Shown in pieces: positions 1-9,673 of a DNA stretch of 39,440 nt. Source of the DNA: an uncultured Eubacteriales bacterium (GTDB lineage: Bacteria > Bacillota > Clostridia > Peptostreptococcales > Anaerovoracaceae); NCBI GenBank assembly GCA_902786855.1, contig CADAEH010000019.1, positions 1 to 39,440 of the forward strand. The letters run 5' to 3'. The notes under the pieces are model-generated. The model ran no database searches. It saw nothing but the letters and a program-made list of their open reading frames with translations, and was not told the origin of the DNA. A program made the position numbers and the translations under genes. How positions within the stretch are numbered: the first letter of the stretch is position 1; each line of letters begins with the position of its first letter.

Positions 1-97
1 TCAGCTGTGTAGATTACTACTTATTGGGTTGAACCGCCGTATGCCGAACGGCACGTACGGTGGTGTGAGAGGGGCTACAAGTTAGCCCCTACTCGAT
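1..97 (+). mobile_element. Group II intron, 3' end (domains V and VI), class-C-like
   Basis: Bases 31-67 fold as a catalytic domain V: GAACCG, a CCGTA/TACGG stem, a CG bulge and a short GCC/GGC stem capped by GAAC. Bases 71-97 form domain VI, with a GGGGCTA/TAGCCCC stem and a TAC branch-point region, ending in CTACTCGAT. This is the usual 3' terminus of bacterial group II introns, and the CGC triad and CG bulge suggest class C. The reverse transcriptase and the 5' part lie outside the window. The 3' exon appears to start near 98, five bases before the mobile-element attachment repeat. The call rests on remembered family sequence and on folding by eye. Confidence 0.78.
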
Positions 98-99
98 TT

Positions 100-1590
100 T
101 TATTGTGGTGTCCCCGAATCGAGTGTAATAGAACTATCGTTCGGTCTTTTGTCAAAATAGCACTCTATATCGGCAGCCTCACTATTCGAGACTCTGCCTT
201 TGCGGCCTGAGTGATTCAGGAATATGCTGAAGTGATCATCATATAGATATATACGGTCTATGAGTGTGTTAACCAGTAGTTTCTGATACTCAAGATCGTC
301 ACGGCTCCCGATTTTTATTGACCTCATGAAAATACGAACAAGGTCGGGCTCTATAATCCTCTGCTTTGCTTGTTCTTTCTTCAGCTGCTTTTTTAGTTCT
401 TCGAGCTCATCCTCTCGTTGCTTCAGTCTGTTTACTATTCTTGTGGAATTCACACCCTCTTCGAGCTGATCTAGCAAGACTTCTATTTTATTTTCAATAG
501 ACTTGATCTTTTCGCGCAAGCTGATTGTTGTGGGGCTTTCCTGATCCATATGGTTTTGTTCTTCAACAGCCTTTATGATGTTATCTATCATTTCCTCAGA
601 TATAAGATCTCGACAGGCTTCAAGAACAAGCGGCTCTATGACATCCTTTCTGACATTCTTCTTGTCGCATTTCTTAGGGGAGTTCAGGCACTTATAGTAT
701 CTATAAGTCTTTCCTGTACCTGAGGTACCCGAGACTCCATCCATAGGATCTTTGCAATGTCCACAGAACAACTTCCCGGAAAGAAGATAATCCTCGATTG
801 CCGGCCGATGACCGTGCTTGCGCTTTCGTGTGATCTCCTGAACTTCTTCAAAGAGTTCGTCGCTGATTATACGAGGGACACCGTCAGGGATGCGTACATC
901 TTTGTAAATGTAGATACCTTTGTACATTTCGTTATGAAGGACAGTAGATAGCGAGCCTCGTTTAAACTGATTCCCTAGCTGAGTTTTGATGCCTCTGTCA
1001 TTGAGATCATCCATGACAGATTTTATTGTTTCACCTGAGGCTACGCGCTCATATATCTCAAGCACTATTGGAGCCCTTTGTTCATCCAGAATAAAGTGAT
1101 CATTTTCATCGACGGCATATCCCAATGGAACAGTGCTGCCATTGTATTTACATTGTGCCGCTCTCTGGAGCATCCCACGGGTTACCTTTTCGGAAAGCTG
1201 AGCGCTGAACCACTGGCTGATAGTCTCAAGCATACCCTCTGTGATGATGCCGGAGCTGTCTGTAGCAATGTTCTCCTTGGCAGACACAACTCTTACTCCG
1301 TTGTCGGCAAGTATCTTCTTGTAGTAACCGGAATCATTCTTGTTACGAGCAAAACGATCCAGCTGGTATACAAGTATTACTTCAAAGTTGCCAAATTCGC
1401 TGTCAGCGATCATACGCAAAAATTCCGGTCGCCTGTCGGTCTTCGCACTCTGCGCCCGGTCGATATATTCCTGCACGATAAGAAGATCATTGGAAGCCGC
1501 ATAGCGCTGGCATTCCTCAATCTGTCCCTCGATGGACATCTCATTCTGCTTATCTGAACTGTATCTTGCGTATATTACTGCGTTTTTCAT
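100..1590 (-). CDS. Large serine recombinase (site-specific integrase of the element)
   Basis: Catalyses integration and excision of the surrounding element. The 496-residue protein begins with a resolvase domain, motif YARYSSDKQ, where S11 is the probable nucleophile. A recombinase domain follows (about 150-260), then a zinc ribbon with Cys pairs CGHC and C-x5-C (about 275-315) and a long charged coiled coil (about 355-410). Start ATG at 1590 follows AGAAAGGA. It is the third leftward gene after the XRE repressor and ORF6N protein. The last codons (GGG ACA CCA CAA TAA) fall inside the 12-bp attachment repeat, so the integrated C-terminus is partly set by the target. In a circular form the frame would continue for 23 residues at 9594-9526. 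Family identity is firm; the tail change is inferred. Confidence 0.95.
   Translation of the reverse strand: MKNAVIYARYSSDKQNEMSIEGQIEECQRYAASNDLLIVQEYIDRAQSAKTDRRPEFLRMIADSEFGNFEVILVYQLDRFARNKNDSGYYKKILADNGVRVVSAKENIATDSSGIITEGMLETISQWFSAQLSEKVTRGMLQRAAQCKYNGSTVPLGYAVDENDHFILDEQRAPIVLEIYERVASGETIKSVMDDLNDRGIKTQLGNQFKRGSLSTVLHNEMYKGIYIYKDVRIPDGVPRIISDELFEEVQEITRKRKHGHRPAIEDYLLSGKLFCGHCKDPMDGVSGTSGTGKTYRYYKCLNSPKKCDKKNVRKDVIEPLVLEACRDLISEEMIDNIIKAVEEQNHMDQESPTTISLREKIKSIENKIEVLLDQLEEGVNSTRIVNRLKQREDELEELKKQLKKEQAKQRIIEPDLVRIFMRSIKIGSRDDLEYQKLLVNTLIDRIYLYDDHFSIFLNHSGRKGRVSNSEAADIECYFDKRPNDSSITLDSGTPQ
103..114. repeat. Distal attachment-site repeat of the integrative element
   Basis: TTGTGGTGTCCC is identical to 9595-9606, which is the 3' end of the tRNA-Arg gene including its encoded CCA. 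The two copies are direct repeats bounding about 9.49 kb that holds the recombinase, relaxase and cargo. This copy lies in the final codons of the recombinase gene, six bases from the end of the group II intron. It is read as the att copy remote from the tRNA. Confidence 0.82.
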
Positions 1591-1629
1591 GTGATCCTTT
1601 CTGTGGTTTAGTGCTTTGATAATATCACT

Positions 1630-1663
1630 TCTCCCATTCTACTGACGTTAGTAAAATGGGAGA
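1630..1663. promoter_or_regulatory. Long hairpin between ORF6N gene and recombinase gene
   Basis: TCTCCCATT (1630-1638) pairs with AATGGGAGA (1655-1663). An inner TACT/AGTA helix gives about 13 bp around a short loop. It lies 40 to 73 bases upstream of the recombinase start and just after the ORF6N stop. No T-tract follows on either strand, so a classical terminator is unlikely. A protein-binding dyad or RNA hairpin controlling recombinase expression is more plausible. Confidence 0.5.
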
Positions 1664-1690
1664 TATTCAAGACTTCCAGTGGGCATACGT

Positions 1691-2725
1691 TTACTTCAGT
1701 ATCAGCTTATTGTTACTCAGGAGGGATGCTATCATTCCTTGATATTCCGTTACTTCCGAGAGCTTTGATATTGTAGTTATCCGCTTTCCCGCGTCCTTAC
1801 TGCTGGCTCCGCAATGGTAGACTTTCATCTCGGCAGTGCCATTATCGAGAATGATGTATCTGTCATGAGTTCTATCCTGCGTCTTGATAAAGTCAACAAC
1901 TTTTGAAGGATATTCCTTCAGGAAATCATTATATTCCGAGAGTTTTAAGAGTCGGAGCTTATTGTCACTTATAATTGTCAGTTTTACGCCTGGCCTGGCA
2001 TGTACAAGGTGCTGTAATGTCTTTACTCCGATGTAATCATCGACTATGATGATGGATTTCTTTGCACTTCGATATATCTTCTGATATGCGACATCTGCCT
2101 TGAAAGGCTGACCATCAAGGATAAGAATTTCTTCATTCTGTATGCCTTGATCGAATAGCTTCATAAATTTCGGAAGGTCGGACTTGGTCAACATGTTTGA
2201 TTTGACTTCATCCAATTCTTTGTTAGTTTCATTCATCTGCTGAAGCAGATATGCATATGCATCACCACTAAGTAATGGCTGGCTTTCAATTATATATTCC
2301 TTCATAGCACGGAAGGTGCGAATCAAAGCGATGCTTTGTGCTACTGCAACATCGCTTTTTAATATGGTCATGAGCATATATACTCCGGACTCTGTATAAC
2401 ACCATGGCAAGTACCGTGAGCCACCTGATTGCCCCTTGAAAACATTGTTTCGTGAGGTAACTTTTTGTGACCTCACCAGGTTATCCAGTTCTTCTCTTGT
2501 AATCTGGAATCTGAAATCCTCCGGGAATTTATCAACGTTCCTTCGCACCTGCTGGTTGAAAGACTTAGTCTCATATCCATAGAGCTCAGCAAGTTCAAAA
2601 TCAAGCATGACCTGAACTCCTCGCACAATATAGATTTTATCTCTTAGTGATTTCTCATCAACAATAGCAACTACCGTTGGTTCTTGCCGCTTGTTATCAC
2701 TAGCAGGTTTTGCTGTATTACTCAT
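1691..2725 (-). CDS. ORF6N-domain protein with PLD-like C-terminal region
   Basis: A phage/element-type DNA-binding protein of 344 residues. Residues about 25-145 match the ORF6N (KilA-N related) domain: the stretches VRGVQVMLDFELAELYGYE, VRRNVDKFPEDF and the CYTESGVYMLMTIL segment are diagnostic. The C-terminal third carries an HDRYIILD motif followed by YHCGASSKDAGK, resembling the phospholipase D-like tail seen in some ORF6N proteins. Start ATG at 2725 follows AAGGAG at four bases. It lies 28 bases after the XRE gene, so both probably share one leftward transcript with the recombinase further on. ORF6N proteins are often antirepressors or phage-derived regulators; a role in induction or defence here is inference. 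Confidence 0.85.
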   Translation of the reverse strand: MSNTAKPASDNKRQEPTVVAIVDEKSLRDKIYIVRGVQVMLDFELAELYGYETKSFNQQVRRNVDKFPEDFRFQITREELDNLVRSQKVTSRNNVFKGQSGGSRYLPWCYTESGVYMLMTILKSDVAVAQSIALIRTFRAMKEYIIESQPLLSGDAYAYLLQQMNETNKELDEVKSNMLTKSDLPKFMKLFDQGIQNEEILILDGQPFKADVAYQKIYRSAKKSIIIVDDYIGVKTLQHLVHARPGVKLTIISDNKLRLLKLSEYNDFLKEYPSKVVDFIKTQDRTHDRYIILDNGTAEMKVYHCGASSKDAGKRITTISKLSEVTEYQGMIASLLSNNKLILK

Positions 2726-2753
2726 AAAACTCCTTCCGGGATACGGATCGCAC

Positions 2754-3362
2754 CTATTTGTCGTTTGTTTTTTCCATTAATTGGTCTTTGTAAAACTGCA
2801 GGATTTTTACGACATCACTTTCGCTATAAATGGCGGTGTTATCTCGTACTTCCATTGCTGGTGGCTGAACACCGGAATTCTGATTGTAATAATAGCCTTC
2901 TTTGCTTCCCGCATCCTCTCTGAGCATAGGATATTTATATCTCCACTCATCATACTCGTTTTTGGATATGCTGCCTGTCGTAAGCTTGTTCTTCATGACA
3001 TACCATGCACGGAGGTCGTCAGCTACTTCCTTGTTGTACTTCGGATGGTTGATATCCTGCTTTAAGCATATATATCCGTCTAGGACAGTAACAGTTAGTC
3101 CGTATAGGTCTTCCATCTGAAAAAGGGTGTGCATAAATCCAATCTTTGTATCGATTTCCGGGCTCTGAATAGCTTCCGGTGCAACATCAAAGATTTCTGC
3201 GAATTGCTCTATTACATCTCTCTTCGGTTCACGTCTATTCCATTCATACTGAGCCACTCTGACATTTGTCGATTTCCCGGCAAACCCCATAGCCTCTCCT
3301 AGTTCTGCCTGTGTCAAACCCTTGCGCCGCCTGAAAAAACGTATCCTTTCGCCTATTGACAT
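2754..3362 (-). CDS. XRE-family helix-turn-helix regulator (element repressor)
   Basis: The 202-residue protein has an N-terminal Cro/C1-type HTH (GERIRFFRRRKGLTQAELGEAMGF, then QYEWNRREPKRDVIEQFAEIFDV). A larger C-terminal region of unknown fold follows, rich in Tyr and Trp. The ATG at 3362 is preferred to the in-frame GTG at 3371, because GAGAGGTG lies eight bases before the ATG but would overlap the GTG. It is the first gene of the leftward transcript, with a good promoter at 3388-3416. Its position between divergent promoters suggests it represses the element's replication/mobilization operon and perhaps itself. No protease or peptidase motif for induction was seen. Confidence 0.9.
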   Translation of the reverse strand: MSIGERIRFFRRRKGLTQAELGEAMGFAGKSTNVRVAQYEWNRREPKRDVIEQFAEIFDVAPEAIQSPEIDTKIGFMHTLFQMEDLYGLTVTVLDGYICLKQDINHPKYNKEVADDLRAWYVMKNKLTTGSISKNEYDEWRYKYPMLREDAGSKEGYYYNQNSGVQPPAMEVRDNTAIYSESDVVKILQFYKDQLMEKTNDK

Positions 3363-3387
3363 GTTAGTCACCTCTCTTTCTGGGAGG

Positions 3388-3416
3388 ATTGTATCATATT
3401 ATCGAAACATATACAA
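3388..3416 (-). promoter_or_regulatory. Promoter and possible operator for the XRE-ORF6N-recombinase transcript
   Basis: On the minus strand, TTGTAT (3416-3411), a 17-base spacer and TACAAT (3393-3388) form a sigma-A promoter, 26 bases before the XRE ATG. ATTGTAT (3388-3394) and ATACAAT (3411-3417) are inverted copies of each other, so the promoter boxes also form a dyad that a repressor could bind. Confidence 0.6.
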
Positions 3417-3448
3417 TAAAAATATAGCAAAAAAGATTATTTTATCAC

Positions 3449-3476
3449 TTGACTATGTCAGAAAAAGTTATATAAT
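3449..3476 (+). promoter_or_regulatory. Rightward promoter for the replication/mobilization genes
   Basis: TTGACT (3449-3454), a 16-base spacer and TATAAT (3471-3476) match a sigma-A promoter. It points away from the XRE gene toward the small ORFs, ATPase and relaxase. The leader of about 100 bases before the first ORF has no obvious hairpin. Confidence 0.6.
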
Positions 3477-3583
3477 AATCTACTTCCTAAAAATAATAAC
3501 ATACAAACAGAAATACATGGAGAGGCTAACGCCTTCCAATAAAGATATAAGTTGTCACTTTAGAAGGATCGAAAGGAGGTTTT

Positions 3584-3739
3584 ATGGAGCTAAGCGAAAG
3601 ACAGATCAAGCAAATTGTCAGAGTGATAATGCCGGAGCTGTATGAGATGCAAGCAGGATGTGACAAATGGTATGACATAATCGCAGAGCTTTGCAGAGGT
3701 AGTGAGAGCAGCAACGCTTCTGAACAGCAAGAGGCATAG
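3584..3739 (+). CDS. Small hypothetical protein of the element, 51 aa
   Basis: ATG at 3584 follows a near-perfect AAAGGAGG at four bases, which is the main support that this short frame is translated. The product begins MELSERQIKQIVRVIMPEL and is mostly helical and acidic, with two Cys and one Trp and no membrane segment. It is the first gene after the rightward promoter. It is not recognised. Small accessory proteins at this place are common in clostridial mobilizable elements. Confidence 0.65.
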   Translation: MELSERQIKQIVRVIMPELYEMQAGCDKWYDIIAELCRGSESSNASEQQEA

Positions 3740-3788
3740 AGCTACCGGTATGAATGTGGTGACAAGTAATAGGGAAAGGAGGATGAGA

Positions 3789-3953
3789 GTGACGAAGATA
3801 ACACCTATGAAAGCAATCAGAGCTAAATGCATCGACTGCAGCTGCGGAGAAAAGAAAGAAGTGAGGCTGTGCCCAATCGAATGGTGCCCGCTATGGCCGT
3901 ACAGGATGGGGAAACGACCTGCGAAGGATGCAAACGTCGATAAGGAAAAATGA
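3789..3953 (+). CDS. Cys-rich small conserved element protein, 54 aa
   Basis: Start GTG at 3789 is chosen because AGGAGG (3777-3782) is six bases upstream; the ATG at 3783 touches the ribosome binding site. The protein contains CIDCSCG, then LCPIEWCPLWPYRMGKRP, a pattern that recurs in small proteins of Firmicute phages and conjugative elements. The Cys pairs may bind zinc or simply stabilise the fold. It sits between the 51-aa ORF and the ATPase in the rightward operon. No function is assigned. Confidence 0.7.
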   Translation: MTKITPMKAIRAKCIDCSCGEKKEVRLCPIEWCPLWPYRMGKRPAKDANVDKEK

Positions 3954-4063
3954 GAGCAAAAAAATCGAGATAACTAGCAGTTTTTTCGAAAAAACACCCC
4001 CGGAGACAGCGGTTTTGAAGAGGGGAGTGGAAAAGGTAGGAATGATTATAAGGAGGGTAGTGA

Positions 4064-5041
4064 ATGACAGAAAACAATTACAAACTTATCAATATGGAAG
4101 ATATAGAAGCAGAAGATGTCGAATGGCTTTGGGAAGGGTTTATACCAGTAGGAAAACTGACAATGCTTCAAGGGGATCCGGGCAAAGGCAAAACAATGGC
4201 TATGCTAAACCTGATCGCAGCCTTCACCACAGGTAGGGGACTGCTGGAACCGCCGGGAAGCCCAATGATCAGGGATCCCATTAATGTCATCTATCAGACT
4301 GCAGAAGACGGACTTGCCGATACCATCAAGCCAAGACTGGTTGCGGCAGGAGCAGACTGCAGCAGAGTTTCGGTCATTGATGAGGGAAATCAGATGCTAA
4401 GCATGACAGACGAGAGACTGATCTGGGCAATCAGGGAGACAGAAGCAGGATTGGTGGTCCTTGACCCTCTCCAGGCATATCTTGGAGAAAAGGTGGATAT
4501 GCACAGAGCAAATGAAGTCAGACCTAGGTTGAAGCATCTTGGAGATATCGCTGCAGAAAACAGATGTGGCATGGTGCTGGTGGGACACCTGAACAAGAAG
4601 GAAACTTCAAAAGCTGAGTACAGAGGTCTTGGCTCAATGGATTTCACTGCCGCAGCACGCAGCGTGATCCTGTGCGCAGAGTTGCCGCGTGACAAAGATG
4701 TGAGGGTGCTCGCATCTACTAAGTGCTCCCTTACTTATCCGCCGGAGCCTGTGGCATTCCGTCTTAGCAAGGAGCGAGGCTTCGAGTGGGAAGGCAGCTA
4801 CAGTATCACTGCTGAAGAATTGCTGCAAGGCACAGGTGTGAAAGGTCAGAAGACAATCGAGGCTAAGGAGTTCCTTACAGCAGAGCTTCCTGCTCCCGGG
4901 GAGTATATCCCAAGTACAGTACTGATGGAGAAAGCAAAGGAGAGGAAGATTGCTGAGAAGACATTACGCAATGCCATGAAGGATCTTGGAATTAAATCTC
5001 ATAAAGAAGCAGACAGATGGCTCACAGGATATGCTGTCTGA
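4064..5041 (+). CDS. RepA-like AAA ATPase (DnaB/RecA-fold), element replication
   Basis: The 325-residue protein has Walker A GDPGKGKT (about residue 39-46), Walker B LVVLDPLQAYLG (about 127-138) and VGHLNKKE with a sensor-like position. This matches the AAA_25/RepA helicase family found in plasmids and integrative elements. The last 70 residues look like a winged-helix DNA-binding tail (KGQKTIEAKEFL, LRNAMKDLGI). Start ATG at 4064 follows AAGGAGGG. It precedes the relaxase and two inverted-repeat regions. A role in replicating the excised circle is inferred from family and context. Confidence 0.85.
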   Translation: MTENNYKLINMEDIEAEDVEWLWEGFIPVGKLTMLQGDPGKGKTMAMLNLIAAFTTGRGLLEPPGSPMIRDPINVIYQTAEDGLADTIKPRLVAAGADCSRVSVIDEGNQMLSMTDERLIWAIRETEAGLVVLDPLQAYLGEKVDMHRANEVRPRLKHLGDIAAENRCGMVLVGHLNKKETSKAEYRGLGSMDFTAAARSVILCAELPRDKDVRVLASTKCSLTYPPEPVAFRLSKERGFEWEGSYSITAEELLQGTGVKGQKTIEAKEFLTAELPAPGEYIPSTVLMEKAKERKIAEKTLRNAMKDLGIKSHKEADRWLTGYAV

Positions 5042-5053
5042 TAACAGAGAAGA

Positions 5054-5158
5054 AGGTGGCAAGATGGTAAGGCGGTAATCCTGCAAAGAGAGCGTCCCTA
5101 CTTAGCATCTTCTTCATAACAATTACAGCCTTGCCATGTTGCTATCTTGCCAACTTGG
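5054..5158. repeat. Imperfect inverted repeat with GGCAAG motifs
   Basis: GGTGGCAAGATGGTAAGG (about 5056-5073) is mirrored by the complement of about 5133-5158, which reads GTTGGCAAGATAGCAAC and then GGCAAGG. The short GGCAAG unit occurs three times. It lies directly after the ATPase stop. It could be a replication origin with iteron-like units or the fold of a single-strand initiation site. The repeat is seen; its role is inferred. Confidence 0.4.
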
Positions 5159-5179
5159 CATAGGCCTCGCCGACTGAGA

Positions 5180-5232
5180 GCGAAATACACCCATCGCACA
5201 AACCTTACGGTTCGTACTCTTGGGTATTTCGC
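5180..5232. other. Candidate oriT: inverted repeat upstream of the relaxase
   Basis: GCGAAATACACCCA (5180-5193) and TGGGTATTTCGC (5221-5232) are inverted repeats differing by one extra A. They enclose a small AACC-TTAC-GGTT hairpin (5201-5212). Relaxases of the MobA/MobL class usually nick beside such a repeat just upstream of their own gene, and this one ends 45 bases before the relaxase start. The nick site was not determined. Confidence 0.5.
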
Positions 5233-5277
5233 CTCGCGGGGCGGTACCGATGAATAAAGAGCGCTCAAGAAAAGGGG

Positions 5278-6351
5278 GTGACGCTTATAAAAAATGTGAC
5301 ATTTATACAGCACGGAAAGCTGACTAATGTGGTCGGCAGGATCAGATATATCAGCGATGAGAAGAAACAGGAGAACCTGTATGCGGTCTATGAAACAGTG
5401 CCGAGGAAGTACTGGCGGGACCTTGCAAAGGAGAATCAGTCGGACTTCAGGCGCAGTGGGACGAGTGGAAACTGCATCGAGGCCAGAGAACTGATAATAG
5501 CTTTGCCGAAAGAAATGACCAGATATGATCCGGATGAACTGCTAAGATACTTCGTTGAATCCTACCGAAAAGAGTATGGCACAGAGTGCATCGCAGCTCT
5601 CCACCATAATAAAAGAAAGACTAATTATCACATCCATCTGATCTATTCGGAGCGGCAGCAGCTGGAAGAACCGGTGAGAAAGATAGCGACACGCAACATG
5701 TATTATGATCCTGAAGGCAGGCATGTAAGGACGAAAAAGGAAGCGACAGTCGATGGAAAACTGTTGCCAGGATACAGCATGATATCAAAAGGTGAAGTAT
5801 ATGAAGAGCATCTATTCGATAAAAAGAATCCGCTATTCAAGCAGAAAACTTTCACAGAAGATGTAAAAGTTTTCTTCACTGATCTCATGAACAGGCAGCT
5901 GTCCGAACCAAATCAGATGCAGGTGTTCCCAAAGAACAGTCCATTCCTTCCGACCAAGAAGATCGGCAAGAACAATCCTAATGCTGGATTTATTGAAGAG
6001 ACCAACAGACTAAAGGATGAATGGAACAAAAAGATGTGGACAGCATACCGTAATGGGGCACCCAAAGAGAGCCTGATAACGGTAAAGAAGGAACTGATAT
6101 CCAAGCCGGCAGCAGAGTCGATCAGGGAAGCCGGCGGCAAAAGTAATCCCGGTAAATACAACAGCATACTTGTAAGAGCGGTAGCGATAGTAGCTGAAAT
6201 GTGCAGACTCCTTAGCAGACAGGGAAGGGAGACTTGGGCAGAAGCCTGGGGCGATTCACTTGAAAAACTGATGCAGTATGCTATTGAGAGAATTGGACTT
6301 AGGATAAATGATCCAGTCAAAGAGCTACGAACTGATAGAGGCGCAAGATAG
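5278..6351 (+). CDS. MobA/MobL-type relaxase (mobilization protein)
   Basis: Nicks DNA at oriT and leads single-strand transfer through a helper conjugation machine. Of 357 residues, the first 200 hold the relaxase domain. GRIRYIS near residue 20-26 offers a candidate catalytic Tyr (Y24), and TNYHIHLIYSERQ carries the HxH metal ligands typical of the MobA/MobL (MobQ-like) family. The C-terminal third is a charged helical region. The start is GTG 5278; AAAGGGG abuts it, so the exact start is uncertain (next in-frame GTG is 5296). No type IV secretion or coupling genes occur nearby, so the element is mobilizable rather than self-transmissible. Confidence 0.82.
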   Translation: MTLIKNVTFIQHGKLTNVVGRIRYISDEKKQENLYAVYETVPRKYWRDLAKENQSDFRRSGTSGNCIEARELIIALPKEMTRYDPDELLRYFVESYRKEYGTECIAALHHNKRKTNYHIHLIYSERQQLEEPVRKIATRNMYYDPEGRHVRTKKEATVDGKLLPGYSMISKGEVYEEHLFDKKNPLFKQKTFTEDVKVFFTDLMNRQLSEPNQMQVFPKNSPFLPTKKIGKNNPNAGFIEETNRLKDEWNKKMWTAYRNGAPKESLITVKKELISKPAAESIREAGGKSNPGKYNSILVRAVAIVAEMCRLLSRQGRETWAEAWGDSLEKLMQYAIERIGLRINDPVKELRTDRGAR

Positions 6352-6378
6352 TCAGCCAAGCCTCGTCATGATGAAAAG

Positions 6379-6409
6379 TACCGGGGACAAAATAATCCCC
6401 GGTATTTTT
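6379..6409. terminator. Bidirectional terminator between relaxase and anti-sigma gene
   Basis: TACCGGGGA (6379-6387) pairs perfectly with TCCCCGGTA (6396-6404) around an eight-base loop. TTTTT follows on the plus strand, and AAAA before the stem gives a T-run on the minus strand. It closes two convergent transcripts. Confidence 0.88.
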
Positions 6410-6426
6410 GTATGAGAAGGCGCGAA

Positions 6427-7080
6427 TCAAATACTTTCGTCAACAACCAAACTGTCGATGATTGAATGGATCTGTTCCATTGAGAGCTGCCCGGTTATGG
6501 CAATGTATGTACCGTTCTTCTCCATGTATACAACAATAAGAGGGCTGGTCTGATCACGGAAGACAATGAGTTCATACTCGCCATATGTTTCTTTGTTGAT
6601 ATCAAAGCCTTCGTTGTCTGCATATACGATACTATCTTTACTGATGCTCTCCTCTATCGTATATTCCAGGCCGTTATCATCATTTGTGTATGTGTAGAAA
6701 ACAATTGAATCATTAAGATTCACTGTATCACTGTAACTGTAATGGGCGGCAATATATTCAGGACGGTAGAAGCAGGTGCCGTTCTCCTCGTCAAGACTTG
6801 TTATAACAATGAAGCCGTCTTTTATGTCAAATTTATAGTTGAAGATCTGAAGACCTAAAGCGGAGCAGACAATTACAGTCAGCGACATTATGAGGATCAT
6901 CGCTGCGCACAGTATTAACGTTCGCCTTGCAATGCGTTTTGTCGAACGAGTGCGAACAGGGACATATGTTTCTGCCTGCATGACTCTGTCATCGGAATTA
7001 AAATAGCGGGCATGCGAATCAAACATCCGGCGCCCATATTCAGATAGTATTCTCTCTGCTTCAGCTGTTCCTTTTGACAT
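6427..7080 (-). CDS. Membrane anti-sigma-like protein, DUF4367-type extracellular domain
   Basis: The 217-residue protein has a short cytoplasmic head, one transmembrane helix (about residues 52-75, LILCAAMILIMSLTVIVCSAL) and an extracellular domain. The domain's pattern (FYTYTNDDNGLEY, a TYGEYELIVFRDQ strand, TYIAITGQLSMEQIHSIIDSL) resembles DUF4367. The sigma gene's TGA immediately precedes this ATG (TGAATG), so the two are translationally coupled, with GGGAGA inside the sigma coding sequence as ribosome binding site. Pairing with an ECF sigma factor and single-pass topology suggest it senses an envelope signal and holds the sigma factor inactive. No canonical zinc anti-sigma motif is present. 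Confidence 0.75.
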   Translation of the reverse strand: MSKGTAEAERILSEYGRRMFDSHARYFNSDDRVMQAETYVPVRTRSTKRIARRTLILCAAMILIMSLTVIVCSALGLQIFNYKFDIKDGFIVITSLDEENGTCFYRPEYIAAHYSYSDTVNLNDSIVFYTYTNDDNGLEYTIEESISKDSIVYADNEGFDINKETYGEYELIVFRDQTSPLIVVYMEKNGTYIAITGQLSMEQIHSIIDSLVVDESI

Positions 7081-7620
7081 TCACAGATTCTCCCTGCTTA
7101 GAATTTCTGCGAGCCTTGCCTTTATTCGCTCCATGCGTTTTCTTAGTGTTTGGGGACTTATGCCCATAAGTTCAGATATTTCTTTGTAATTGTAGTCTGC
7201 ACCATAGTAATAACATATGAGATCCCGATCTTCATTGTTGAGTTGTTTAAGGGCATCGGCGACTTCTTCGGAGAAGCCATACTCATCTTTGAATTCATCA
7301 ATATCCGGCTGTCCTTCTATATTAATAAATCCCTCAACATCAGAAAATGTGACATCAGAGTCATGTTTTGCCTGCTGCTTGCGTATTTTTAAGGCGGCAT
7401 TCTTAGTGACTGTGTATATATAGTTTCTCGCGTCCGCAGAATTGATATCCGTTATTTTCTGCTGATTTCTGTGAACTGAGAGCAGCGCATCCTGAACTGC
7501 CTCTTCGGCGTCCTCTCTGCTGCCGGTTATCTGAAGCGAGAGCTTCATCATCATCGCCTTATATTTATCAGATACGAGTTCTGCAAAATCTTTTACAACT
7601 GAAACCAGAAATGAAATCAT
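7081..7620 (-). CDS. ECF-type RNA polymerase sigma factor
   Basis: A 179-residue sigma-70 family protein with region 2 (YKAMMMKLSLQITGSREDAEEAVQDALLSVHRN, then ARNYIYTVTKNAALKIRKQ) and region 4 (LNNEDRDLICYYYGADYNYKEISELMGISPQTLRKRMERIKARL). ATG at 7620 follows AGGAGG at five bases. It is first in an operon with the membrane anti-sigma protein and has its own promoter (7648-7675). It diverges from the PASTA-VanZ-signal peptidase genes, so those are the natural first candidates for its regulon, although no promoter consensus is visible to prove it. Confidence 0.9.
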   Translation of the reverse strand: MISFLVSVVKDFAELVSDKYKAMMMKLSLQITGSREDAEEAVQDALLSVHRNQQKITDINSADARNYIYTVTKNAALKIRKQQAKHDSDVTFSDVEGFINIEGQPDIDEFKDEYGFSEEVADALKQLNNEDRDLICYYYGADYNYKEISELMGISPQTLRKRMERIKARLAEILSRENL

Positions 7621-7647
7621 CGATTCCTCCTGTGAAATAGTGATTCC

Positions 7648-7675
7648 ATTATAGCGCGCAAAAAAGAATTATCAA
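7648..7675 (-). promoter_or_regulatory. Promoter of the sigma/anti-sigma operon
   Basis: On the minus strand, TTGATA (7675-7670), 16 bases and TATAAT (7653-7648) form a strong sigma-A promoter 27 bases before the sigma start. The operon therefore looks basally transcribed by the housekeeping polymerase. Confidence 0.65.
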
Positions 7676-7755
7676 AACATGTCACATTTCAAGACGGAGA
7701 GGGATTTATATAGATGGAGGCCATTGGGTAGAGAAAACGGAAGGAGCTTTAAATA

Positions 7756-8061
7756 ATGAGAAAATCTTTGTTGATAATGATTGCTATATCAGTGCTTTTG
7801 ATTGGATCGTCTTGTTCTGGCACAGCCACAGAAACAGATCAAGATAAATCATCAGCGTTGCTGGTGCCGAATGTAATAGGCATGGAATTGGAAGATGCCA
7901 AGAGCGCAATCAAAGGGAGCGGGCTGGAAGTCGGAAATATAGAATACATCGAGGGCGATGATTCTGGTAAAGAAGTTATCACCAGTCAGGATCCGCAGCC
8001 GGGTGAGGAAACAAGTAAAGGTGAACAAATCAGCTTAACAGTATCGATAGCGACAAATTGA
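7756..8061 (+). CDS. PASTA-domain lipoprotein
   Basis: The 101-residue protein starts with a signal peptide (MRKSLLIMIAISVLLIG) and a probable lipid-modified C20, though the lipobox SSC is weaker than usual. A single PASTA domain fills residues 36-98 (VPNVIGMELEDAKSAIKGSGL, then SQDPQPGEE). PASTA domains bind muropeptides or the cell wall in PrkC-type kinases and PBPs. ATG at 7756 follows AAGGAG. It heads the rightward cargo genes and diverges from the sigma operon. A free-standing PASTA lipoprotein may act as a wall sensor or anchor; this is inference. Confidence 0.85.
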   Translation: MRKSLLIMIAISVLLIGSSCSGTATETDQDKSSALLVPNVIGMELEDAKSAIKGSGLEVGNIEYIEGDDSGKEVITSQDPQPGEETSKGEQISLTVSIATN

Positions 8062-8091
8062 TAAAAAGTTGGGAGGCGTTTTTTCTGGAAA

Positions 8092-8667
8092 ATGACGATT
8101 GTAATAACATCTGGTCTGTTTCTACTGATATCTATACTGATAATACCGATTATCTGCTTATCATATTTATGTATTGGCAATAGAAGGAACGTAATTATGA
8201 AAGGGCGCAAAGAAGTATTCTGGACGGGATTATTTGCATTTTACATATGTATTATTGTTTCGTTTACTATTTTGCCAATAAGAGTACCAGGAGAAATACC
8301 TTATGGTTTTGAATATAACCTAAATGTTTTGAATTTGCTTAAGGCTTTTACAAACAGAGCGGCACTAATATCGTACTGTGAAAACATACTTCTGTTCATG
8401 CCTGTAACTATTTTTGGACATTTAGGAAATGTACATATGGTGAAGTCATTAAAGGGGAGCGTTTTGATCTCATTTGTCATGTCGGTCGGGATCGAATTGA
8501 TTCAGGGGCTGGAGGCTATTCTTTGTATAGCTGAGGATATGACGCCTATAATGGATGTTAATGATGTCATCTGCAATACGATTGGAGGTGCGATAGGATA
8601 TATGCTGGTGCGCTTTTGCACAGATCAGCACAAAAATGAAGTTTTTGATAGCTTCCATTCTCTTTAA
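8092..8667 (+). CDS. VanZ-like membrane protein
   Basis: The 191-residue protein has five likely membrane helices and the VanZ family hallmarks: ENILLFMPV, SVGIELIQG and DVNDVICNTIGGAIGYM. VanZ family members include the teicoplanin-resistance protein of Tn1546, but most have unknown function. No other van genes are present, so glycopeptide resistance should not be assumed. The only in-frame start is ATG 8092, 15 bases after GGGAGG, which is a long spacing. AT content is visibly higher than in the chromosomal genes after 9.8 kb. Confidence 0.85.
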   Translation: MTIVITSGLFLLISILIIPIICLSYLCIGNRRNVIMKGRKEVFWTGLFAFYICIIVSFTILPIRVPGEIPYGFEYNLNVLNLLKAFTNRAALISYCENILLFMPVTIFGHLGNVHMVKSLKGSVLISFVMSVGIELIQGLEAILCIAEDMTPIMDVNDVICNTIGGAIGYMLVRFCTDQHKNEVFDSFHSL

Positions 8668-8715
8668 TTTGGCGTATCGAATTGATAATTGATAAAGCAA
8701 TACATAGGTGATATT

Positions 8716-8904
8716 ATGTTGTATCAACTGGGGATTAACTCGTTGGGATCATTCACATTTAGAATTTCAGAAGTTATAGCAGCAATGGTTGGGGTAATAG
8801 GCTTGACTTTGGGAATATATAAAAGAAAAGATCGATACGCATATGAAGGAATAGTTGCCTCAGCTGTAAGTTTAGTGATTGCAATTTGTAACTTCCGCTT
8901 TTAA
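8716..8904 (+). CDS. Small two-helix membrane protein, 62 aa
   Basis: Start ATG 8716 is preferred over the upstream ATG 8689 because AGGTGAT lies six bases before it. The product has two hydrophobic segments (about residues 17-31 and 45-58) separated by a basic turn GIYKRKDRYAYEG. It is packed between the VanZ-like gene and the signal peptidase gene, two bases before the latter. Not recognised as a named family. It may be a partner of the neighbouring signal peptidase. Confidence 0.6.
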   Translation: MLYQLGINSLGSFTFRISEVIAAMVGVIGLTLGIYKRKDRYAYEGIVASAVSLVIAICNFRF

Positions 8905-8906
8905 TA

Positions 8907-9485
8907 ATGCGTGATTATCATGATTTTAAAGTAATGAGCAACAGCAAAAACTCTGTATTAAATAATATGCTTGTGGATATGGTTATCGCAACAGTTTTGG
9001 CTGCAGCGATTCTTTTCTTCATAAGACCTACGATAGTTAACGGAGAGTCCATGGAGAATACACTTCATAATGGGGACTATTTGATTATGGCAAGGAAAGC
9101 TTATAGCAAGCATGATCCCGAAAAGGGCGACATCGTAATCGTGAAAAGCTCACTTACAGATTATAAATCCGGGAAGCACAAGCTTATAGTCAAACGTGTT
9201 ATTGGTGTACCTGGCGATAAAATAGCCATCAGGGACAACAATCTTTTTCTAAATGATCAGAATTATATTGAAGAATATATAAAGGACGGATTCACACCTG
9301 CTGTAGATATTCCGGAAGATGGAAGCAGCGTAATCGTTCCAGATGGTTGCTATTATGTGCTTGGAGACAACCGATGCAACAGTACCGATTCCAGAAGCAG
9401 TGAAGTTGGTTTTATTAGCAAAAGCGATATCAAAGGAAAAGTAGTGCTACGGCTATTTCCGTTTAGCAAAATACAGATCTATTAA
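8907..9485 (+). CDS. lepB: Signal peptidase I (bacterial Ser/Lys type), element cargo
   Basis: Cleaves signal peptides outside the membrane. The 192-residue protein has one N-terminal transmembrane helix (about 24-40), catalytic serine in NGESME (S48), catalytic lysine in VKRVIGVPGD (K96) and the box E signature GDNRCNSTDSRS. Length and domain order are normal for Gram-positive SipS-type enzymes. Start 8907 lacks a clear ribosome binding site; ATG 8934 is an alternative. It is the last cargo gene before the terminator and att site. It is distinct from the ER-type enzyme at 18221. Confidence 0.92.
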   Translation: MRDYHDFKVMSNSKNSVLNNMLVDMVIATVLAAAILFFIRPTIVNGESMENTLHNGDYLIMARKAYSKHDPEKGDIVIVKSSLTDYKSGKHKLIVKRVIGVPGDKIAIRDNNLFLNDQNYIEEYIKDGFTPAVDIPEDGSSVIVPDGCYYVLGDNRCNSTDSRSSEVGFISKSDIKGKVVLRLFPFSKIQIY

Positions 9486-9500
9486 ATAATGAAAAGCAAA

Positions 9501-9526
9501 AAACGGCAAACATTGCCGTTTTTTAA
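9501..9526. terminator. Bidirectional terminator at the element's tRNA-proximal end
   Basis: AAACGGCAA (9501-9509) pairs with TTGCCGTTT (9513-9521) around a three-base loop, with T-runs on both strands. On the plus strand it ends the signal peptidase transcript. On the minus strand it directly follows the stop codon (9525-9523) of the recombinase extension that would exist in the circular form. Confidence 0.88.
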
Positions 9527-9594
9527 TTTACCTTATTCATCTGTACTCTCACAGCGAAACCGCCGCGGTAGAAGTAAAAGTTCGAATAGGTCAG
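9523..9594 (-). other. Displaced 3' segment of the recombinase gene
   Basis: Reading leftward from the proximal att repeat in the frame set by the recombinase codons ACA CCA CAA, the frame stays open for 23 codons. It starts LTYSNFYFYRGG, ends QMNKVN, and stops with TAA at 9525-9523, directly before a terminator. In the integrated state these codons are separated from the rest of the gene by 9.4 kb. Excision would rejoin them and give a 519-residue recombinase. The joined frame is computed from the sequence; its use in vivo is inference. Confidence 0.65.
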
Positions 9595-9606
9595 TTGTGG
9601 TGTCCC
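9595..9606. repeat. tRNA-proximal attachment-site repeat of the integrative element
   Basis: TTGTGGTGTCCC is identical to 103-114. It comprises the CCA end, discriminator base and five acceptor-stem bases of the tRNA-Arg gene plus three bases beyond. The element supplies this end of the tRNA and leaves its sequence intact. Confidence 0.82.
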
Positions 9607-9673
9607 AGGCGCGATTCGAACGCGCGACACCCGCTTTAGGAGAGCGGTGCTCTGTCCCCTGAGCTACTGAGAC
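9598..9673 (-). tRNA. tRNA-Arg (CCU anticodon), CCA encoded
   Basis: The minus-strand 76-mer folds as a cloverleaf. Acceptor GTCTCAG pairs with CTGGGAC (one T-G pair), the D arm is GCTC/GAGC, the anticodon stem CCGCT/AGCGG holds loop CTCCTAA with anticodon CCT, and the T arm GCGCG/CGCGC has loop TTCGAAT. Discriminator A and CCA follow. It reads AGG codons. Its 3' end is the integration target of the adjoining element. Confidence 0.96.

Follow-up and report, generated by a model that had tools for sequence, protein, structure and literature searches.

The recombinase gene of a 9.5-kb integrative mobilizable element, inserted at the 3' end of tRNA-Arg(CCU) in an uncultured Eubacteriales bacterium (Anaerovoracaceae), probably contains the attachment site of the element, attP, within its coding sequence. 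The element lies in a window of 39,440 nucleotides, the whole stretch analysed (assembly GCA_902786855.1, contig CADAEH010000019.1). According to this reading, to which we give a probability of about 85%, a short run of codons now found behind the tRNA is the native end of the recombinase, and integration trims it from the protein. The reading is supported because relatives carry conserved tails of the same kind, phages have an uncut gene, and attP half-sites pair across the split; the same evidence upholds the original prediction, which had taken the frame extension for the native end. The anatomy of the split recombinase gene is close to certain. At the level of sequence, the split, the conserved tail, the half-sites pairing across the split and the occurrence of uncut and cut states in a phage relative can be regarded as established, and from these we infer the excised form of the window element.

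The ends of the element are marked by a 12-bp repeat, TTGTGGTGTCCC, at 103-114 and 9595-9606. It lies where it was predicted and is confined to these two places in the 2.9-Mb genome of the bacterium (two forward and no reverse matches; the pattern read backwards, used as a control, gave none). On the minus strand, the first copy reads GGG ACA CCA CAA TAA and encodes the last residues of the recombinase, again as predicted. The integrated form of this gene (100-1590, minus strand) encodes 496 residues, ends in ..LDSGTPQ followed by the stop codon, and has the Pfam domains Resolvase, Recombinase and Zn_ribbon_recom in that order, each above its cut-off, which identifies a large serine recombinase. 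The second copy takes in the 3' end of tRNA-Arg(CCU), which is intact after insertion (9598-9673, minus strand; tRNA-Arg(CCT) in ARAGORN). The codons GGG ACA CCA of the recombinase therefore double as a tRNA 3' end. The earlier equation of the second copy with the tRNA end holds for a 9-bp core at 9598-9606, but the remaining CAA lies beyond the tRNA. Use of a tRNA 3' end by a serine integrase had been called less usual, in agreement with passages of PMC4383910 and PMC5704250.

The recombinase frame of the closest relatives continues as far as GGGACACCA, corresponding to the tRNA acceptor end plus CCA, and then enters differing chromosomal DNA or meets the end of the contig. Chromosomal-side bases after CCA vary, and GGGACACCA is common to all. 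On this comparison the core is 9 bp with its boundary at CCA, forming attL at 106-114 and attR at 9598-9606 (both minus strand). The CAA shared by the two repeat copies of the window is probably a coincidence, because relatives share only GGGACACCA and differ beyond CCA; a 12-bp core was ruled out on the same grounds.

Empty sites agree with a boundary at CCA. In one relative (G016; G and L numbers are our designations of genomes and loci), the integrase-side flank aligns in register with what follows the empty tRNA-Arg of G031 (80% over bases 5-49 of both). It also matches sequence behind the empty tRNA-Arg of G025 and G034, approximately 0.8-1 kb farther out. In the window, the chromosomal side of attL is a group II intron 3' end (32-97, plus strand; RF00029, 45.7 bits against a cut-off of 40). 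The same intron end sits behind the tRNA-Arg of G069 (L052), where the element is absent, 8 bases closer to CCA than in the window (95.7% identity over 70 bp). Judged by eye, empty tRNA-Arg sites of other species have a terminator-like hairpin shortly after CCA. Also by eye, two loci (L059 in G027 and L120 in G025) have tail-like stretches slightly past a tRNA that is equipped with a hairpin of its own, as might remain after imprecise loss of an element.

The tRNA-side frame consists of 24 codons (9526-9597, minus strand), encoding QLTYSNFYFYRGGFAVRVQMNKVN, and ends at a stop codon at 9525-9523; the predicted run of 23 codons is thus confirmed, with one more when the initial Q is counted. The predicted bidirectional terminator after the stop was also recovered, as a hairpin at 9498-9524 that is terminator-like on both strands. 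Short tails of the same kind, collected by their likeness to one another, occur behind tRNA ends in 14 genomes (17 tails, e.g., HLQYSNFYFYPGGFAVEVWFK in G011, KPPYSNLYFYPGGFATEVWFESNK in G061 and IQRYKNLVFYKGGCATIAWFN in G021). They were present behind 10 of the 30 tRNA-Arg loci listed, two of these having only the first 19 nt. The register in which CCA is followed by the first tail codon is kept by 16 of the 17 (G243c differs), and 16 stop after 21-28 codons, the tail of G172 having no stop in the 50 codons read. A hairpin after the tail stop was seen by eye.

Codon-level constraint was assessed for 16 of the 17 tails (13 distinct; G243c excluded). Frame 0 was open in all 13, and the other forward frames were open in 4 and 6. 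The ratio of nonsynonymous to synonymous differences (pN/pS) was 0.57 in frame 0 versus 0.86 and 0.92 in the other forward frames, and column shuffling gave a value as low in 8 of 300 trials, suggesting a moderate signal of constraint. A tail profile was then built from 13 phage integrase C termini, none of them from the clade of the window. Twelve of 14 distinct element tails scored at least 7.1, compared with maxima of 2.6 for 63 control stretches taken from the same DNA in its five other frames and 1.5 for eight host-encoded integrase extensions; shuffled tails reached the median score of 11.0 in 6 of 3,400 cases. These scores support the view that the tail is an old part of the integrase protein.

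The putative attP half-sites flank the core on either side of the split, with the left half-site, AGTTCTATTAC, inside the recombinase gene (125-135, minus strand) and the right half-site, TATTCGAAC, inside the detached tail (9580-9588, minus strand). Dyads were scored with the two element ends kept apart, over 25 offsets and 17 positions. The best dyad was centred 5 nt before the last A of CCA in all six element pairs, with 8-10 of 17 positions matching, and the same left halves combined with seven empty-site flanks at the same offset gave 1-7. All six pairs therefore have the two inverted half-sites around a centre that characterize attP of large serine recombinases. In uncut phage genes, a CCA-anchored search, in which 12 of 14 genes were scored and no shuffle control was applied, placed the best centre 4.5-5.5 nt upstream of the final A of CCA in 9 of the 12, often as GTTCGT...ACGAAC; the best anchored centre lay elsewhere in L170, L159 and L163. 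When the 14 genes were searched without the anchor, the best centre of several did not fall at the CCA core, and in 8 of the 14 its score was matched by at least 57 of 200 shuffles. CCACCA or GCACCA is present in the linker of 12 of the 14 phage genes (not in L159 or Shimadzu) and is read in all three frames, as SST, APP and LHQ. AlphaFold modelling of an uncut phage integrase (L160) gave a disordered stretch at residues 486-515, the linker encoded by attP, followed by strands at 516-520 and 523-527, and the window protein was modelled with a disordered end of 14 residues. The attP codons thus seem to fall in a part of the protein that can accommodate them.

Phage relatives provide the uncut form. 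Integrases in phage records were 33-46% identical to that of the window among the matches listed (20 of 42). The uncut integrase of Dulem virus 37, a circular record, ends in STIFVFPYGLVLAFELKASRS; that of Roseburia phage Shimadzu, flagged as a pseudogene in its record, ends in NPVYFFKKVFAVVVNFTRK; and Faecalibacterium phage Pioen has integrase and tail in a single gene ending in TTIQMVGNVFVLFCEIPNVTLT. Up to GATAGCTCCACCA, Pioen and FP_Taranis share 94.5% identity (913 nt), which falls to 25.6% in the 90 nt that follow. Beyond GATAGCTCCACCA, Pioen continues into tail, stop codon and hairpin, and Taranis into other DNA that opens with a hairpin. The integrase is internal in the Pioen record, and the FP_Taranis record starts within it. 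A scan of IMG/VR with the window protein yielded no relatives, and a scan with the Pioen integrase yielded 21 loci, of which, by eye, 12 end in the β-hairpin (including two near-identical pairs), 2 are uncertain and the remaining 7 are either cut or continue into different DNA. One of these records, the prophage 3300010279_000461 (G347), contains a tRNA-Ala(GGC) ending in CTCCACCA followed by a tail 100% identical to that of Pioen over 93 nt. At the opposite end of the record lies an integrase 86% identical to that of Pioen and cut at CCACCA. By comparison with Pioen, G347 has the geometry of the window in a phage with a known uncut form, which indicates that uncut and cut states both occur naturally.

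Integrated copies are consistently without the tail in frame. None of 17 integrated recombinases had an in-frame β-hairpin tail; 10 of them stop too close behind the core for a score, and the remaining 7 had profile scores of ≤1.5 (G003, whose contig ends at CCA, G121 and G296 were omitted). Instead, integrated copies pick up chromosomal codons after the core, from 0 to approximately 70. Where integrase and tail are on the same contig, they are in the same frame in six of seven cases (G000, G016, G015, G003, G061 and G021). A terminator-like hairpin is visible by eye after CCA behind the trimmed recombinase in many relatives, the window having the intron end in its place. In distantly related recombinases (L101, L105, L106, L107 and L108), the gene ends appeared by eye like a tRNA or transfer-messenger RNA (tmRNA) in antisense, so overlap of recombinase and RNA genes may also exist in the opposite orientation.

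Several observations weigh against attP lying in the gene and the tail being its native end. The dyad test does not amount to six independent cases, because the right half-site is almost identical in four of the six. The codons of the β-hairpin in Pioen (L145, ~2470-2600), L170, L154 and L159 themselves resemble an attP half-site (GTTCGT..), possibly forming a third integrase-binding site. Confidence in the modelled L160 hairpin is low (block means of 48 and 53; predicted template modelling score, 0.37). The tails G021a and G243c scored at background with the profile, 3 of its 13 training members failed leave-one-out, the training set was hand-aligned once the tails were already known, and 5 of 17,810 windows on one strand of a Subdoligranulum plasmid reached 7.0 or more; for these reasons the score is meaningful at the expected place only. 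On one of the seven shared contigs, the integrase is one frame off its tails (G243). On this contig elements are stacked, and three tails occur in the space of 10 kb (L116, 7621-17101), one behind tRNA-Lys and two behind partial tRNA-like ends. A motif search detected no tail on six more integrase contigs (L115, L117 and L127-L130), where either the contig ends before the tail or the tail is truly lacking.

The evidence from free forms is likewise mixed. The predicted circle junction was sought in 48 genomes of the genus, and neither a circle nor a tandem junction was found, nor was there an uncut copy from the window's own clade. The β-hairpin is present in only 4 of 19 annotated phage and plasmid relatives (Dulem virus 37, Shimadzu, Pioen and L146). 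Several of the other 15, mostly linear fecal scaffolds, end just past GAP or APP, endings that could be encoded by tRNA-like GCACCA or CTCCACCA. The expectation that unintegrated relatives carry the tail was borne out by Pioen and Dulem virus 37 and contradicted by the circular Subdoligranulum plasmid OY725851 (L177). Plasmid relatives of the integrase were ≤40% identical (11 records), and the OY725851 integrase (40%) has an end of the cut type, in which the half-site is followed by GGTGCACCA and a terminator-like hairpin; a second core and a recognizable tail are both missing from the plasmid. No explanation for a cut form on this circular plasmid was found in this analysis.

If attP does lie within the gene, the excised circle would carry a recombinase gene composed of a body, a flexible linker and a short β-hairpin tail, followed by stop codon and terminator, with the linker encoding both attP half-sites and a copy of the tRNA 3' end. 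Recombination with the 3' end of tRNA-Arg(CCU) would sever the gene within the linker. The body, including the catalytic domain, would remain at attL and read into chromosomal codons, and the tail and terminator would land behind the tRNA. The hairpin at 9498-9524 would then end the recombinase transcript on the circle and the tRNA transcript after integration, and the trimmed recombinase would acquire the hairpin formerly located behind the tRNA. As to function, for which the original prediction had suggested a possible switch of recombinase stability or directionality, the tailed enzyme may integrate the element, and loss of the tail may weaken or redirect it, a step that we consider possible and somewhat short of probable. 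The integrated state would be favored until help arrives, in the form of a recombination directionality factor (RDF) or of a tailed integrase acting in trans. In serine integrases, coiled-coil contacts hold back attL and attR (according to the relevant part of PMC3783163), and a C-terminal hairpin could bear on this hold.

A rival explanation almost as plausible as this functional step accepts the tail as real protein and denies its trimming any regulatory meaning: attP would lie near the gene end for compactness, and both forms would work alike. Consistent with it, the integrated form in the window has whole catalytic, recombinase and zinc domains, and relatives retain a long open frame when integrated (17 translated), as needed for later excision. 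Distant phage integrases nevertheless keep the β-hairpin with a tRNA-like core at the same place, so the tail is probably useful in at least one state. A stronger effect, in which the trimmed enzyme is inactive and excision requires the tailed integrase of another copy, has been described for archaeal integrases of the SSV type (PMC8371274, in the part on this model). Related elements are common, to judge by the tails behind tRNA-Arg loci, and elements can stack, as in G243; what is lost, however, is a short tail that leaves the catalytic domain untouched, and we consider such near-suicidal integration unlikely.

The tail could also be kept as DNA only, serving as the right arm of attP, with a half-site and perhaps a further integrase-binding site, and as a terminator, the open frame being a by-product. 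The half-site does lie within the first ~18 nt past CCA, sequence similar to a half-site recurs in the β-hairpin codons of Pioen, L170, L154 and L159, among others, and in several phage genes the best unanchored dyad falls between the two half-sites. Yet tails that have diverged as DNA retain the hydrophobic pattern of the hairpin, the hairpin is encoded without the GTTCG motif in L162, L164, L166, L168 and Dulem virus 37, and the stop codon falls within the same short range in all tails except one; this explanation is improbable. Still less is to be said for a degradation-tag switch, in which the tailed form is unstable and the trimmed form stable. The geometry resembles that of mycobacteriophage BPs, with attP in a gene and a longer viral form (PMC4557955, in the passages on this switch), but an ssrA-like AA ending was found in none of the 16 tails with a stop codon, and the candidate was rejected. 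A chance repeat followed by a lucky open frame, for which the CAA (3 of the 12 bp) is the one probable instance of chance, was rejected with near certainty, given the uniqueness of the repeat in its own genome, the recurrence of tails in relatives, the empty sites and the phage pairs.

The closest described parallel to a recombinase gene split at attP is that of DsiB of the Dehalococcoides ssrA islands, which at its 3' end invariably overlaps attL and has its stop codon beyond the limits of the island; the authors suggest that the recombinase may be fully functional only on the circle (section on dsiB in PMC3146451). The window recombinase has this layout and, like DsiB, is a serine recombinase of a mobilizable-type island with its 3' end over attL at an RNA gene. 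Unlike it, DsiB is homologous to CcrB, has DsiA as a partner and is found at tmRNA, and the window recombinase scored 148.8 bits against a cut-off of 900 for the NCBIfam CcrB equivalog. The DsiB section mentions no conserved tail and leaves the stop unclear, whereas in the window clade tail and stop were found and phages have the uncut form. The present data thus supply the missing end and the uncut form for a clade other than that of DsiB. In the excerpts of open-licence PMC literature covering the subject, no report besides PMC3146451 described a bacterial integrase split in this way.

Archaeal SSV-type integrases share attP inside the integrase gene and the splitting of the gene upon integration, but, as outlined in PMC8371274, they are tyrosine recombinases whose N- and C-terminal parts become separated, with the catalytic part cut off, and the window encodes a serine recombinase with an intact catalytic N terminus. 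In BPs, attP also lies within a gene whose viral product has a longer C terminus than the prophage product, but the split gene encodes the repressor and the tail is an ssrA-like degradation tag (same passages of PMC4557955). The A118, Bxb1, phiC31 and SPbeta structures have the same fold as the uncut phage relative (Foldseek E values down to 6e-22, SPbeta integrase chains), matches that concern serine integrases as a whole and carry no information on a counterpart of the β-hairpin. These systems share the paired half-sites, and a serine integrase contacts approximately 50 bp of attP (PMC3783163, part on att sites), but the accounts of them that were available describe no attP inside a coding sequence.

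Between the repeats, the element encodes its own integrase and a MobA/MobL relaxase (5278-6351, plus strand; MobA_MobL, 46.4 bits against a cut-off of 26.7), and it is classed as an integrative mobilizable element because of this gene content. No type IV secretion system protein was detected among the 10 predicted proteins of the element that were scanned, a set that leaves smaller open reading frames aside. An AAA_25 ATPase (4064-5041, plus strand) and an XRE-type regulator (2754-3371, minus strand) are also present, and the other cargo comprises genes for an ORF6N protein, a sigma factor beside a DUF4367 protein, and PASTA, VanZ-like and signal peptidase proteins. The ORF6N protein (1691-2725, minus strand) strongly matches the PADLOC candidate defense model PDC-S05 (E value, 1.5e-102). 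In the region 6427-9485, the Sigma-70-type factor adjoins the DUF4367 protein, perhaps as a sigma/anti-sigma pair, and the PASTA lipoprotein, VanZ-like and signal peptidase genes that follow possibly form an envelope-related cargo set. The VanZ-like protein (8092-8667) was ruled out as a resistance determinant (33.7 bits against a cut-off of 250). Relatives occur, among others, in records of Mogibacterium sp. from the gut of goats and sheep and in RUG assemblies, the latter presumably from rumen.

The one-directionality of serine integrases is a central question, and the usual answer is a separate protein, the RDF. In the elements and phages described here, the sequence of the enzyme itself depends on the integration state, and both forms exist in nature, which allows a direct test. 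The principle would be shared with the archaeal suicidal integrases and the BPs repressor, as far as those are described in the sources cited above, with a different enzyme class or type of tail. A 2021 review considers self-disrupting recombinases exclusively archaeal (PMC8371274, in the passage concerned); those proposed here are bacterial and belong to another class. A more far-reaching and rather tentative interpretation is that the large serine integrases of this clade, bacterial and phage alike, carry an inherent switch of direction that needs no further factor. With attP in a disordered linker before a conserved β-hairpin, integration would leave the element's sole copy of the enzyme without its hairpin, turning an integration-competent protein into one unable to act on attL and attR or acting only on them. 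Even without such a switch, a sequence that depends on the integration state would mean that integrases of this kind from assembled prophages and islands are annotated and cloned in their trimmed form, with a chance end encoded by the host, which might explain some failures.

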